A stretch of 64,000 bases of DNA from positions 3,162,001-3,226,000 of the forward strand of contig NC_022600.1 in the NCBI RefSeq assembly GCF_000484535.1. Reading direction: 5' to 3'. Within the stretch, counting starts at the first letter, position 1, and each line of letters opens with the position of its first letter. The notes below the pieces were generated by a model. The model did not search any database and had not been told where the DNA came from. It saw only the letters and a list, made by a program, of their open reading frames with translations. Positions 59,024 to 64,000 of this stretch are shown piece after piece. The translations under genes were made by a program, and so were the position numbers. Source of the DNA: Gloeobacter kilaueensis JS1. Its GTDB lineage: Bacteria; Cyanobacteriota; Cyanobacteriia; Gloeobacterales; Gloeobacteraceae.

Positions 59024-60118
59024 GTGACGATGGTAAAGATTCACGTTTACCTACCGGACGATCGACGGCAGGTAGGAAGGCTGCAATTAGTTGACGATAA
59101 TGATGAGATAATTACGGGACCATTCCCTGTGCTTGGTAAGGCAGATAATCAGGCGGCAGCAGCAAATGGCAATCCGTCACGAGATCCGCTACGGAAAAAT
59201 GGGGATACACCCCTGGGAACTTACCGAGTATCCGAAGTGCGGCCCACAGATAATGAACATTATCCTAACCACTCCTACGGTCCATACGGTTTTCTGCCCT
59301 TGATTGCTGTGAGCGGCCAAGCGTTGCACGCTGCACAAAACGGACGGGCAGGTTTGGGAATTCATGCAGGCGATCCCGGAACTGGTGGAAAATTGAGACC
59401 TACTTATGGCTGTCTTCGGCTTTTCAACGATAACCAAAAACAGCTTGTTGCTGCTCTAAAAAATGAAGGTTTGCCATGCGAGTGCATAGTTGAATCCACA
59501 TCGAAGCCATCTTCAATAACCTTTTTACTTGAGAGTGAAGTTTATAGCGTTGGAGAAGACGATGGAGATGTGCCGAGCGAACCTGCAGAGGCTGTTGCTG
59601 CAATTGCAGCTTTAGAAGCATTCAGCTTTATACGTTCTCCATTTAGCATCGACGCGCCGCTCAAAAAGAATAATTCGCGCTTGACTCCGCAACTCTTTGA
59701 TAGATATCTTGACTCGAGAGAGCGGACACTTCTTTCTGGGCTTGGTGTCTACGCTATTGATGCTCAGAGCAAGTACGGGATCAATGCGACATACATTGTC
59801 GCTCATGCCATTGTAGAAACTGGCTGGGGTACGTCCAGAATCTGCATAGAAAAGAACAACTTGTTTGGCTGGGGCGCATTTGACGGCACGCCCTACCAAA
59901 GTTCCAAGGGCTTTCCAAGTCGGGAGATATGCGTCGATTTTGTGATGGGCAAAATCAACAGCCTGTACCTGGATCCCGCTGGTCGATACTACAGGGGTGC
60001 AGTACTTGGTAATAAGGACCATGGGATGAATGTTTACTATGCGTCCGACCCGAACTGGGGAAGAACAATCGCAGCAGTGGCTGAGAGAATTGAGAGATTT
60101 CTCGATTCACAAACTTGA
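59024..60118 (+). CDS. L,D-transpeptidase-like domain fused to a glucosaminidase, no signal peptide
   Basis: A 364-residue protein. Residues about 5-155 match a YkuD/L,D-transpeptidase-type fold: DTPLGTYRVSE, GLGIHAGDPGTGG (His114), and LRPTYGCLRLFND (Cys130 in the YGCLRL motif). Residues about 215-362 match the GH73-type glucosaminidase domain of bacterial autolysins: ATYIVAHAIVETGWGTSRICIEKNNLFGW with the catalytic Glu265. It starts MTMVKIHVYLPDDR, with no signal peptide or TM helix, so both wall-acting domains would be made in the cytoplasm. It precedes the gasdermin-like gene by 155 bp on the same strand and shares the island's lower GC content. Confidence 0.83.
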   Translation: MTMVKIHVYLPDDRRQVGRLQLVDDNDEIITGPFPVLGKADNQAAAANGNPSRDPLRKNGDTPLGTYRVSEVRPTDNEHYPNHSYGPYGFLPLIAVSGQALHAAQNGRAGLGIHAGDPGTGGKLRPTYGCLRLFNDNQKQLVAALKNEGLPCECIVESTSKPSSITFLLESEVYSVGEDDGDVPSEPAEAVAAIAALEAFSFIRSPFSIDAPLKKNNSRLTPQLFDRYLDSRERTLLSGLGVYAIDAQSKYGINATYIVAHAIVETGWGTSRICIEKNNLFGWGAFDGTPYQSSKGFPSREICVDFVMGKINSLYLDPAGRYYRGAVLGNKDHGMNVYYASDPNWGRTIAAVAERIERFLDSQT

Positions 60119-60273
60119 GAAAGCGTTCAGGTAGCAAATTAGGCCAGTTGAATTATCCGTTAGCGAATCGATATGCGAAGTAAGTCCTCCATTGCTCGAG
60201 GCAATCTATCGAATCCAGCCCTGGTGGTGCATTTCAAGGTCAATGTTCTTCTCAACTTAACGAGGTCTTCGGT

Positions 60274-61722
60274 ATGTGCAAAGACGGCTCCGTGAATTTT
60301 CTCCAATCAGTTGGCTACAATGTAATTCGCTATCCTAGCGAAAAGTTTAAACCACTTCAAGTTCTTGTTCGAGTTCCTAATCGCAATCGGGTTATTGAAC
60401 TAATTGGGCCAGTAACAGACCTTATCTCTGCTGGCCCTACAGCACCTGAGCCCAAAGAGTTAGATGGTGCTGATGTGAGTGGGAAGCAATCAGATAAATT
60501 TGAACTCAGCTTTGGTCTTGGGATACTGAGAGATCTACTCAAGACTTTAGGAGTAGGAGCGATAAATCTGAGCACAGCTTTCTCAAACTCAAAAGAGATT
60601 CAATTCGTCTACCAAAATGTCAAGCTAGACTCACTCATGACTACTAGTGCCGCCAGCTACTTAAAAGCCTGCAAACCAGACGTAAGCAGCGAGCTGTTCG
60701 ATCAAATGGATGAAGAGGGAGAAGCCTATTGCATCATCGAAACGTTAAAGTCCAATAGCTTCTCGGTCAGAGCTTTTCGTGATAATGGGTTCAGCGCAAG
60801 CATTGATCTGAGCGTCCTTCAGGAAGCTTTAGCTTTCACTCCTGGCATTAGCATTTCCGGCAACGATGAGCTTGTTACCTTCTATAAAGGTGATAGTAAT
60901 CTCGTCTTTGGATTCAAAGCTATCCCATTTTGGGTTGCCATTGACTCTGCTGGCTTGCCATACTTCAAGATCGAGTACTCCTCGGCTCCTACCTCAGATG
61001 TGCTTGAGGGTATTCAAACTGATCGTGGTAACCAGAGCGAGCAACTGCTACTCGATACCGTAGTATTGAGCGAAGATCTACTGCTTGTAAAGCTAGACAA
61101 CGGCCTGGATCGACCTACACTGAGAGAAATGGCCCTGCCTCCAGCATCTACCCTTATATCTTCTGCAGCCTCTCCTTTTGGAAGTGCTGAGTCTACTAGG
61201 ACTTCTGCTGAGGGCGTTTTTGACGATCTACACCAAGATCCGGATGACTCTGAGCAAAAGTCTACTCCTATAGTTGGAGTTGAGGTTGAGGCTGTGCGTC
61301 CCTGGCGAGTTGCTAAGTGCCTTGAAGTTCTGCGAGGGCAGATCAACTCAAAATTTCCTAGACGTGACAAAGATAGCGATGGTTGTATCGGTGATGCCAG
61401 CCATCAAACACGTAATTCAGATCACAACCCTTGGGTAGTTGATGGGGGTATAGGTGTAGTAACTGCCTGTGATGTCACTCACGATCCCGCCCATGGCTGC
61501 AATGCCGGAACAATTGTACAAGCACTTTGGCAAAGTCGTGACCCGCGTATTAAATACATTATCTGGAATAGACGAATTGCTAACTCTTCACCAATTGGTG
61601 GGGTTGAAGCATGGACCTGGAGATCCTACACCGGCTCCAATCCTCACACTGAGCACTTTCATCTCTCTGTTAAGTCCGAAAAAGACAGATACGACTCGAC
61701 GACGTTATGGTCGATTACCTGA
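60274..61722 (+). CDS. Bacterial gasdermin-like pore-forming domain fused to an M15-like peptidase
   Basis: A 482-residue protein. The N-terminus MCKDGSVNFLQSVGYNVIRY then PSEKFKPLQVLV matches bacterial gasdermins, where an N-terminal Cys is palmitoylated. The domain continues with AINLSTAFSNSKEIQFVYQNV (about 97-116) and closes with GDSNLVFGFKAIPFWV (206-221), about 235 residues in all. A flexible Ser/Asp/Glu-rich linker runs from about 240 to 340. Residues about 342-470 look like an M15-type peptidoglycan peptidase of phage-lysin kind: GDASHQTRNSDHNPW, VVTACDVTHDPAHGC, NPHTEHFHLSV, with candidate metal ligands His384, Asp400 and His463. GAGG precedes the ATG. There is no signal peptide. The subtilisin gene follows after 41 bp. 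Gasdermin assignment rests on pattern memory, not a search. Confidence 0.72.
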   Translation: MCKDGSVNFLQSVGYNVIRYPSEKFKPLQVLVRVPNRNRVIELIGPVTDLISAGPTAPEPKELDGADVSGKQSDKFELSFGLGILRDLLKTLGVGAINLSTAFSNSKEIQFVYQNVKLDSLMTTSAASYLKACKPDVSSELFDQMDEEGEAYCIIETLKSNSFSVRAFRDNGFSASIDLSVLQEALAFTPGISISGNDELVTFYKGDSNLVFGFKAIPFWVAIDSAGLPYFKIEYSSAPTSDVLEGIQTDRGNQSEQLLLDTVVLSEDLLLVKLDNGLDRPTLREMALPPASTLISSAASPFGSAESTRTSAEGVFDDLHQDPDDSEQKSTPIVGVEVEAVRPWRVAKCLEVLRGQINSKFPRRDKDSDGCIGDASHQTRNSDHNPWVVDGGIGVVTACDVTHDPAHGCNAGTIVQALWQSRDPRIKYIIWNRRIANSSPIGGVEAWTWRSYTGSNPHTEHFHLSVKSEKDRYDSTTLWSIT

Positions 61723-61763
61723 TGTGACTTTTTTAAGTTTGCCTATGTTGTTATGGAGGAGGA

Positions 61764-63215
61764 ATGATGGAATCGGAAGCACTGGCAAAAGCTCGCATGG
61801 TTGTTCATAATCGTTACGGTGCTGATTTAGAGAGCAAGGCAAGTGATGCTTTCTGTATTGTGCATGGTCTGCCAACTGTAGCCACTGAGGCTTTTTTTGA
61901 GTCGGCTGTGGCGAGTACAGCAAGTATACCCTTAGAAGCGCCAGCGGCAGTGATCGAATTCGCCCATAGTTCTGAGGTCGTTGCCGAACGCTCACAAGCA
62001 ACTGATGCTATACGCAACAGCCCTACCTGGGACCAAATCAAAGAAACAATAGCCGAACTTAATCAGTTCGAGGAACTGCCTCTGCGAGCAACACAGTTGC
62101 TGCGCGACAGGAGCATTCGTTCGAGCAGGGAGAACTTCTACAGAACGATTGGAGTGATGCGCGGGGCGATCGAGCGTGGAGCACGCGCCTTCATCCAGCC
62201 CGGTACATCAAGCCTGAACACATATGCCTCGGCACGTACAAGCGAAGTGTGCTGGTTAAATCGCACCATTCTTACCTGGGCCGACCTGCGAGTTCTGTCG
62301 GAACTCGCTTCGGATCGCAGCATTGAACAACTTGACCTACCCCGGCAGCTAACTGCCGAGGTGAGCATACCTGGATTGCCTTCAAAGGCACCTGAATTTC
62401 GTCTGTCGTCTGGACGAACCGGTAAAGGAATTATCGTTGCTGTTATTGATTCGGAAGTTGCTCTTCAGCATCCCGCTCTCGTCGGTCGTGTGATTCAAAA
62501 ACGCAATTATTCGCGCGAACCCTGGGGAAATCCCGATGCTCATGGAACAACTGTTGCAGGAATTATTGCCGCTCAATCAGATCAATACGACGGAATCGCG
62601 CCAAATGCAACAATTTACAATTACAAGGTTCTTGCGACCAATCGCTTCTCAAATGGGAACGATTTTTATGGCAATCTTGCCATTCAATCTGCTCTGGAGG
62701 ACGGAGCCCATATTGCGAATTGTTCTTGGGGTGCTGGACCGATTAGCGACGGCCGATCTCGCGAGGCCAGAGCTTGTAACGCTGCGTGGCAATATGGACT
62801 TACCATAGTCAAGAGTGCTGGAAATAATGGTCCTACTGCAGGCAGTTTAACCTCTCCAGCGGATGCGGAAGGAATTATTGTTGTTGGAGCTACTGACGAA
62901 ACAGGTGTTACTGTTCAGGATTACAGTAGTCGTGGTCCGCTCAAGAATGGTGAGCATCGTCCGCATCTAGTGGCAGTAGGTGGAACCACTCTGCGCGGAG
63001 TCGATGGTTGTACTGTAGGTGGAGACTTCGGAGATTGCGGGTATGGAACCAGTTTTGCTGCTCCCTATATAACTGGTCTGATTGCGCTTCTACTAGAAGG
63101 CGAACCAGACCTAGAACCCGACCAATTACGCACTAAATTGTTACATTTGTGTAATCCATTAAGAGCACACAGCTTAGATGTTGACGGAGAAGGATTTCCG
63201 CTTCTGCCACTTTAG
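61764..63215 (+). CDS. Subtilisin-like (S8) serine protease with N-terminal prodomain
   Basis: A 483-residue S8 peptidase with all catalytic residues: Asp229 (VAVIDSEV), His260 (DAHGTTVAGIIAA), oxyanion Asn354 (SAGNNGPTAG) and Ser430 (GYGTSFAAPYITG). Residues about 85-205 form a prodomain-like region including SEVCWLNRTILTWADLRVL and IEQLDLPRQL. A leading segment of about 85 residues is unassigned. There is no signal peptide, so it should act in the cytoplasm. GGAGGAGGA precedes the ATG. It follows the gasdermin-like gene by 41 bp, in the position where bacterial gasdermins usually have their activating protease. It overlaps the convergent inhibitor-like gene by 4 bp. Confidence 0.9.
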   Translation: MMESEALAKARMVVHNRYGADLESKASDAFCIVHGLPTVATEAFFESAVASTASIPLEAPAAVIEFAHSSEVVAERSQATDAIRNSPTWDQIKETIAELNQFEELPLRATQLLRDRSIRSSRENFYRTIGVMRGAIERGARAFIQPGTSSLNTYASARTSEVCWLNRTILTWADLRVLSELASDRSIEQLDLPRQLTAEVSIPGLPSKAPEFRLSSGRTGKGIIVAVIDSEVALQHPALVGRVIQKRNYSREPWGNPDAHGTTVAGIIAAQSDQYDGIAPNATIYNYKVLATNRFSNGNDFYGNLAIQSALEDGAHIANCSWGAGPISDGRSREARACNAAWQYGLTIVKSAGNNGPTAGSLTSPADAEGIIVVGATDETGVTVQDYSSRGPLKNGEHRPHLVAVGGTTLRGVDGCTVGGDFGDCGYGTSFAAPYITGLIALLLEGEPDLEPDQLRTKLLHLCNPLRAHSLDVDGEGFPLLPL

Positions 63216-63550
63216 GGTGACAGCCGATCGACATTGATGGCATGTGGCAAATCGAGAAACTCTACTCTGTCAAAGCTGGCCAAATTTTTAATTGTATGTG
63301 CTGGGACACGCGCCAGAATTGTGTGATTAAGCCAGGCAGTTGATGTCACTTCTCCTCCCGACCGCCGGATGGTTTCTTCAATAGGGTCAACTATTTTCTG
63401 GAAAGCTTCACGCGACTGTGCGATCCGATCGCTTCTCGAGATGCCTTCTACTTTGGGCTCATGCACCTTCAACTCCAAAACCAGGTCGAGCATTGCTGAA
63501 CTATCAGCTTGCTCCAGCCACGCCTCCAACTCAGCTGCAATCTTTTGCAT
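63212..63550 (-). CDS. Stand-alone prodomain/inhibitor-like protein for the adjacent protease
   Basis: A 112-residue protein. Its C-terminal half (TSTAWLNHTILARVPAHTI then NLASFDRVEFLDLPHAI) aligns well with the prodomain of the neighbouring subtilisin (SEVCWLNRTILTWADLRVL then LASDRSIEQLDLPRQL), and the preceding SREAF segment also matches SRENF. Subtilisin prodomains are potent inhibitors of their own protease, and free-standing I9-type homologues exist. A dedicated inhibitor is therefore the likely role, by inference. It is encoded on the opposite strand, tail to tail, with a 4-bp overlap, so it has its own promoter from the right. Confidence 0.75.
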   Translation of the reverse strand: MQKIAAELEAWLEQADSSAMLDLVLELKVHEPKVEGISRSDRIAQSREAFQKIVDPIEETIRRSGGEVTSTAWLNHTILARVPAHTIKNLASFDRVEFLDLPHAINVDRLSP

Positions 63551-63615: not shown

Positions 63616-64000
63616 GTAACTGTTCAGGTGCTGGTTTCCGGGATCAGTGACGGTTGAGCAAAACCCCCATGATAGGTTGCCTGCAACGCTCGCACGAAAA
63701 ACTCCATCGCCGAGCGGCCCTGCCGCCGACACGATTGGATCACACTCAACAAGTCCGCCGTCTGGGCATACCCTGCCTGCGACCGGCTTCCTCCCGACAC
63801 TTTGCGCCGGGTCACAGCCAAGCGTAAGTTCCGCTCCGACAGATTGTTGTCCGGACGCACCGCCGGATTCGACAAAAACTGCCACCACTGCCCAGCGCGC
63901 TCCTGCAACGAGCGCAGCAGTTTGCTCCCTGCATAGGCTGCTTTCGGTTGCCAGGTGCGGATCGCCTGCTCCACCCGCACCCGAAACTGCTGCCCCCAAC
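63616..64000 (-). mobile_element. IS66-family element, cut by the window edge
   Basis: The inner end begins with GTAAC at 63616, in keeping with IS66 termini that start GTAA. The transposase frame then fills the rest of the window. The other end and accessory tnpA/tnpB genes are outside the view. It borders the gasdermin/protease island on the right. Confidence 0.8.
63624..64000 (-). CDS. IS66 family transposase (TnpC) C-terminus, partial
   Basis: The frame is open from the window edge to TGA at 63624, giving about 125 residues of the C-terminal part. Typical IS66 sequence is seen: WGQQFRVRVEQAI, LSNPAVRPDNNLSERNLRLA with the final acidic residue of the DDE set, RRKVSGGSRSQAGYAQTADLLSVIQSCRRQG. 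The N-terminus lies outside the window. No frameshift is visible in the part present. Confidence 0.9.
   Translation of the reverse strand, partial: WGQQFRVRVEQAIRTWQPKAAYAGSKLLRSLQERAGQWWQFLSNPAVRPDNNLSERNLRLAVTRRKVSGGSRSQAGYAQTADLLSVIQSCRRQGRSAMEFFVRALQATYHGGFAQPSLIPETST

Follow-up and report, generated by a model that had tools for sequence, protein, structure and literature searches.

A gasdermin-endolysin fusion encoded beside a subtilisin-like protease in Gloeobacter kilaueensis points to a probable protease-gated lysis module

Bacterial gasdermins (bGSDMs) are pore formers with kinship to gasdermin, a cell-death protein of humans. Characterised bGSDMs end in a short inhibitory peptide and are encoded next to a caspase-like protease. 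In Podospora, the S8 protease HET-Q2 cleaves the gasdermin HET-Q1 (PMC10989679). Some bGSDM operons were linked by Johnson and Kranzusch to potential cell-wall-degrading effectors, in analogy to holin and endolysin, and the same authors regarded further roles of the C-terminal gasdermin domain as still to be examined (PMC9612521). Fusions of gasdermin domains with proteases are on record (PMC10584675), and an added phage endolysin reportedly became more active against Pseudomonas aeruginosa in the presence of recombinant N-terminal gasdermin D (PMC11748493). Here, we analyse a stretch of 64,000 nucleotides from Gloeobacter kilaueensis JS1 (NC_022600.1, positions 3,162,001 to 3,226,000; termed the window), in which one gene encodes a gasdermin joined to an endolysin-like peptidase domain and is followed directly by the gene of an S8 (subtilisin-like) protease. 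We think it probable that these genes form a suicide-lysis module under protease control, which would free a pore and a lysin together once the fusion is cleaved.

The locus shares with the characterised bGSDM systems the gasdermin domain, the N-terminal cysteine, the neighbouring protease gene and the cytosolic location, whereas here the protein ends in an endolysin domain and the protease is of the S8 type. HET-Q1 and HET-Q2 likewise place a gasdermin next to a subtilisin-like protease, but this system is fungal, lacks a wall hydrolase and serves allorecognition instead of phage defence. The phage holin-endolysin cassette also combines a membrane pore with a wall enzyme, and the enzyme domain found here is of the same phage endolysin family; in the present locus, however, the pore-former is a gasdermin, both functions reside in one polypeptide and control is presumably proteolytic. 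The NLR-like ATPase and the CARD-bearing trypsin of the CARD-NLR gasdermin system are absent from the open reading frames of the island as judged by the reading-frame list, Pfam and PADLOC. The following features were assigned.

60274-61722, plus strand: gasdermin-endolysin fusion, 482 residues (profiles, PDB, AlphaFold/Foldseek)
60274-60942, plus strand: gasdermin pore-forming domain, residues 1-223 (PADLOC, NCBIfam, PDB)
60943-61143, plus strand: candidate retained inhibitory tail, residues ~224-290 (weak likeness to a Gloeothece bGSDM tail)
61144-61293, plus strand: linker, residues ~291-340, with the motif DxHxDP at residues 318-323 (61225-61242; motif comparison)
61294-61719, plus strand: endolysin peptidase domain, M15-like/clan MD, residues 341-482 (model confidence, Foldseek, profile, invariant residues)
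61764-63215, plus strand: S8 subtilisin-like protease with N-terminal extension and prodomain-like region, 483 residues (Pfam, PADLOC, triad motifs)
59024-60118, plus strand: YkuD (L,D-transpeptidase-fold) and glucosaminidase protein, 364 residues (Pfam, motifs)
63212-63550, minus strand: small S8-prodomain-like protein, candidate protease inhibitor (BLASTP)
63624-63998, minus strand: IS66 transposase, continuing past the window end (Pfam DDE_Tnp_IS66, E 2.5e-7)

A previous reading of this DNA from its letters (the sequence-only reading) had described four adjacent genes in an island of lower guanine-plus-cytosine (GC) content. All four reading frames are intact within 59024-63550, and the GC content of the island genes is 0.45-0.50 vs 0.59 window-wide. 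The S8 gene starts 41 bases 3' of the fusion gene on the same strand, the YkuD-glucosaminidase gene lies 155 bases upstream of the fusion gene, and the small-protein gene runs convergently to the S8 gene on the opposite strand with an overlap of 4 bases. According to hydropathy, none of the proteins encoded in the island carries a signal peptide or membrane segment, unlike the malectin protein upstream of it, which has a hydrophobic N-terminus. Scans of the island for promoters and terminators stayed near chance level.

Residues 1-223 of the fusion are, by sequence comparison, a bacterial gasdermin, as had been proposed for the first ~235 residues. They match the PADLOC bGSDM model with an E value of 6.6e-55, the fusion scores 147 bits with the NCBIfam model prok_gasdermin (cut-off 100), and a comparison with bGSDM structures, proposed earlier as a check, matched the PDB entries 8sl0 and 7n51 by sequence over residues 1-224 at E 1.6e-28. 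The protein begins with MCKD, placing Cys2 at the usual lipidation position of bGSDMs; this residue is invariant across five aligned bGSDMs and is the predicted lipidation site.

The C-terminal residues 341-482 matched no Pfam model at E<=1, models of M15 and VanY included, and the domain is thus not filed under the Pfam M15 family. Its identity to phage endolysins and to bacterial relatives is ~44-65%, with 65% to a Novosphingobium protein and 54% to a phage protein. Viral contigs contain at least 591 stretches coding for relatives, and prophage-like copies were also found. When AlphaFold was run with 57 relatives, the predicted local distance difference test (pLDDT) score exceeded 90 over most of the domain. 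Foldseek against the PDB returned five VldE MT3 entries as the top five matches (probability 1.00, E 4e-3 to 9e-3, best 4.4e-3), and, independently of Foldseek, the best match of the sequence profile was also VldE (E 0.003), at 18-21% identity in the aligned part. VldE (Spr1875), a pneumococcal wall-remodelling enzyme, is an L-Ala-D-Glu endopeptidase of LAS fold with zinc ligands H301, D308 and H375 and catalytic H373 (PMC11667670). Residues H384, D400, H461 and H463 are invariant in 58 sequences and are all kept in the fusion; by motif alignment, H384, D400 and H463 were assigned as metal ligands and H461 falls at the place of VldE H373, so that the HxH pair and the His/Asp zinc ligands are alike in both proteins. 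On the basis of the VldE matches and these invariant residues, we identify the domain as an M15-like, clan MD endolysin peptidase with a LAS-group fold, and by analogy the predicted cut is most likely at L-Ala-D-Glu. The earlier assignment of the last ~130 residues to an M15 or phage-lysin peptidase therefore stands for the confidently predicted fold, the metal ligands and the kinship with phage endolysins, while among solved structures the MT3-type VldE, and not VanY, comes closest. Against viral models, the best Foldseek match was a phage tape-measure protein (E 4.9e-3), which fits the MT3 name and is not relied on here.

In phages, the domain occurs in typical lysis contexts. It is fused to PG_binding_1 on one phage contig (L006), and in the Glutamicibacter phage Montesquieu its gene stands directly before a gene annotated as holin. 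Most phage genes inspected carry further C-terminal parts beyond the domain. Separately, on four contigs (L029, L031, L033, L035) phage endolysins of this family seem to terminate in transmembrane segments, which replace a wall-binding domain or come in addition to one.

About 115 residues separate the gasdermin from the wall-peptidase domain. The sequence-only reading had taken the inhibitory tail to be replaced by a linker plus enzyme, a claim that is not established: residues 216-290 weakly resemble one of four stand-alone tails. The alignment score with the tail of a stand-alone Gloeothece bGSDM was reached by 7 of 500 shuffles, and likeness to three other cyanobacterial bGSDM tails was not significant. 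An inhibitory tail may thus be retained in residues ~224-290, as weakly indicated by this one comparison, or may be absent. The weakness of the evidence for retention speaks for the idea that the main task of the endolysin domain is to silence the gasdermin as a bulky C-terminal cap, as in animal gasdermins, its enzyme activity being incidental; the position of the domain also equals that of the animal repressor domain. However, the fusion keeps all positions invariant in the 58 sequences, metal ligands included, and a second wall hydrolase adjoins its gene, and we consider a mere cap quite unlikely.

Further along the joining region, residues 318-323 read DLHQDP and fit the pattern DxHxDP. 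Of 7 bacterial non-phage copies, 5 carry the pattern ahead of the endolysin domain (the fusion, L003, L004, L008 and L009), whereas all 53 phage endolysins compared lack it. Among shuffled linkers it arose in 82 of 100000, a figure that serves as a guide only, because the pattern had been noticed before it was tested. Its presence in bacterial and not in phage copies suggests that the fused enzyme part derives from a bacterial effector of the DxHxDP type and not straight from a phage. The motif itself may mark a site of processing or docking. An internal start at Met286 (61129), which would yield a free endolysin, showed no good ribosome-binding site.

Bacterial copies of the endolysin domain recur in alphaproteobacterial loci together with EAD1-trypsin and trypsin-endonuclease proteins, the latter sharing the layout of LypC in LypABC. 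Judged by sequence, the enzyme part of the fusion resembles the effectors of these CARD-NLR-like loci: identity of the domain reaches the 65% given above, DxHxDP is present in part of them and proteases are adjacent. The loci differ in that the three genomes and two plasmids examined yielded no gasdermin, and the domain is often joined to a lysozyme-like part instead. Endolysin domains in such loci, often with a lysozyme-like second part, were seen at L002:9848-11185, L003:9944-11287, L004:7628-8755, L009:6956-8311 and L010:3030-7444; on the last of these, a Sinorhizobium plasmid, the domain is C-terminal on a protein of 553 residues (L010:5783-7444), whose N-terminal part matched nothing. LypABC is a CARD-NLR-like immune system reported to drive release of gene transfer agents, and its lytic effector is reported as unknown (PMC13236601). 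The endolysin-lysozyme proteins of the alphaproteobacterial EAD1/trypsin loci are candidates for the lytic effectors of LypABC-like systems. The link of LypABC to particle release is an argument for a module that releases toxins or particles by lysis, or has a developmental role, rather than defending against phage. Yet no particle or toxin genes were recognised in the island and the bGSDM systems that have been characterised protect their hosts from phage (PMC10989679, PMC9612521), and we regard this alternative as unlikely.

The S8 protease proposed as the neighbour of the fusion was confirmed. Its product matches Pfam S8 at E 1.1e-44, the motifs of the catalytic triad are intact at D229, H260 and S430, and the PADLOC 'subtilase' model fits residues 2-481, i.e., the full length, at E 1.1e-151. 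For its N-terminal 217 residues, 243 other cyanobacterial genomes yielded no relative. The small protein, described before as a homologue of the protease prodomain, is 26% identical to S8 residues 114-199 (BLASTP E 3e-5, single comparison). This is the weaker part of the assignment, because no Pfam inhibitor model matched, I9 included; the AlphaFold model of the small protein was uninformative (pLDDT 43), and no credible homologues were found in plasmids. In a Nostoc plasmid, an S8 protease 34% identical over residues 99-481 is encoded near a lysozyme-PG_binding-YkuD protein.

The second wall hydrolase, predicted as a fusion of LD-transpeptidase and glucosaminidase, shows both domains in Pfam (YkuD, E 1.7e-6; Glucosaminidase, E 1.5e-18) and the corresponding catalytic motifs, namely the YkuD His/Cys (GIHAG..YGCLR) and the glucosaminidase Glu (VETGWG). 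Its N-terminal hydropathy is low, and no signal peptide was seen. Scans of viral contigs found no match for this protein, for the S8 protease or, by alignment, for the gasdermin.

Taken together, we envisage the following course of events. At rest, the fusion would be cytosolic, as it has neither signal peptide nor membrane segment, with its gasdermin half autoinhibited as in other family members, and the S8 protease would be restrained by its own prodomain and perhaps also by the small prodomain homologue. On some trigger, S8 would cut the fusion within the region 224-340, whereupon the Cys2-lipidated gasdermin half is expected to open large inner-membrane pores. Through these, the released endolysin domain could leave together with the separate YkuD-glucosaminidase protein, and both could cut peptidoglycan, the endolysin most likely at the bond cleaved by VldE. 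One protein would thereby do the work of phage holin and endolysin and lyse the cell fast, with abortive infection as the most likely purpose. That a single cut activates two effectors, the N-terminal piece as pore and the C-terminal piece as a lysin leaving through it, has in our estimate an even chance of being correct. The module as a whole is supported by the identity of the gasdermin and endolysin parts, the phage lysis contexts of the latter, the kept catalytic positions, the lack of export signals and the S8 gene directly downstream; it draws further on the HET-Q1/HET-Q2 precedent, the Nostoc S8 gene near a wall enzyme, the endolysin domains in protease loci, and a bGSDM near phage-lysozyme and caspase genes in another cyanobacterium (G602). 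Several points limit it or weigh against it. The gasdermin half of the AlphaFold model had pLDDT values mostly below 50 and is not interpretable, this being a single-sequence region with no gasdermin relatives in the input, so that this half of the model speaks for neither side. No sensor gene was recognised among the open reading frames of the island, and the YkuD-glucosaminidase gene, given its distance from the fusion gene, may be separate from the module. In addition, the genomes searched yielded neither a further gasdermin-endolysin fusion nor another pairing of a gasdermin with S8.

Few of the cyanobacteria searched carry a gasdermin. Of 386 cyanobacteria, 2 had a bGSDM, G. kilaueensis included, as did 4 of 218 genomes of one cyanobacterial family (two being fragments) and 2 of 42 of another (one already counted); 24 other nearest relatives had none. 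In the family of a Rhodopseudomonas locus, 1 of 300 genomes was positive, and the 0 of 399 obtained for its phylum is not proof of absence, since the control gave no match. Among the gasdermins surveyed, no gene other than the present one has a frame that stays open past ~330 residues. The G570 gasdermin neighbours caspase and CHAT genes; in G602 (L026:6455-12024), the bGSDM gene diverges from a phage-lysozyme gene that seems to carry a frameshift ahead of its PG-binding part, with C39 peptidase and caspase genes following. The conserved gene order on which the sequence-only reading had staked its proposal was thus in part not borne out: sister Gloeobacter genomes have no gasdermin, and other cyanobacterial gasdermins were found not beside S8. 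The coupling of gasdermin and S8 hence rests on one locus, the PADLOC subtilase model and the fungal HET-Q1/HET-Q2 precedent.

These neighbourhoods of CHAT or caspase genes instead of S8 also speak for S8 and the small protein as an independent pair, with the fusion activated by another protease, e.g., a caspase-like one. A caspase-domain gene lies ~10 kb downstream in the same genome, and related S8 genes pair with other wall enzymes and toxins. Against this stand the short same-strand gap between the fusion and S8 genes, their shared low GC content and the fit of a model from a defence library over the whole length of the S8 protein; we rate independence as rather unlikely. Since the fusion was found neither in sister Gloeobacter nor in any other genome searched, and IS66 sits at the island border (as a 477-residue frame in the flanking genome), a recent chance fusion with little function was also considered. 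The frames are, however, open across 4.5 kb with catalytic positions intact, and no signs of decay are seen, unlike in a truncated gasdermin of 151 residues elsewhere (L005:1492-1947), making such an accident very unlikely. That truncated copy is followed by a frame with pentapeptide-like repeats and represents a decayed gasdermin. The genome of G. kilaueensis is a single contig of 4,724,791 bases and the genus is represented by four genomes; when recent gain of the island was probed via the upstream malectin gene, sister genomes held distant homologues only, so no empty site could be demonstrated.

As to precedent, the architecture had been put forward as undescribed. In the literature on bacterial gasdermins searched, which does not extend to key papers, no bacterial gasdermin joined to a wall hydrolase or endolysin was found, and by its domain make-up the protein appears new as a fusion within bGSDM-protease systems; the link of bGSDM operons to wall-degrading effectors was already known from the review cited above. 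If the proposed module is real, it would provide a gasdermin whose C-terminal fragment has a lethal activity of its own, i.e., a natural, self-contained holin-endolysin protein, and reveal how a bacterium with a cell wall brings lysis to completion once pores have formed. With the fusion, a single gene and a single protease suffice to put both the function of the C-terminal fragment and the link to wall effectors to a direct test.

Some further clusters were observed. Past the window end, ~9-12 kb away in the same genome, a caspase-domain gene is accompanied by an alpha/beta-hydrolase-like gene (L027:12437-15965). Two cyanobacterial plasmid clusters (L012:3369-9769 and L013:4473-9469) combine an S8 protease, a PrcB-like protein and lysozyme/YkuD proteins, the second also containing a ribonuclease-domain protein, and small proteins of the first share similar, leader-like acidic N-termini. 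A small YkuD protein is encoded in a Rhizobium plasmid cluster (L014:6995-7576) beside large unannotated proteins.

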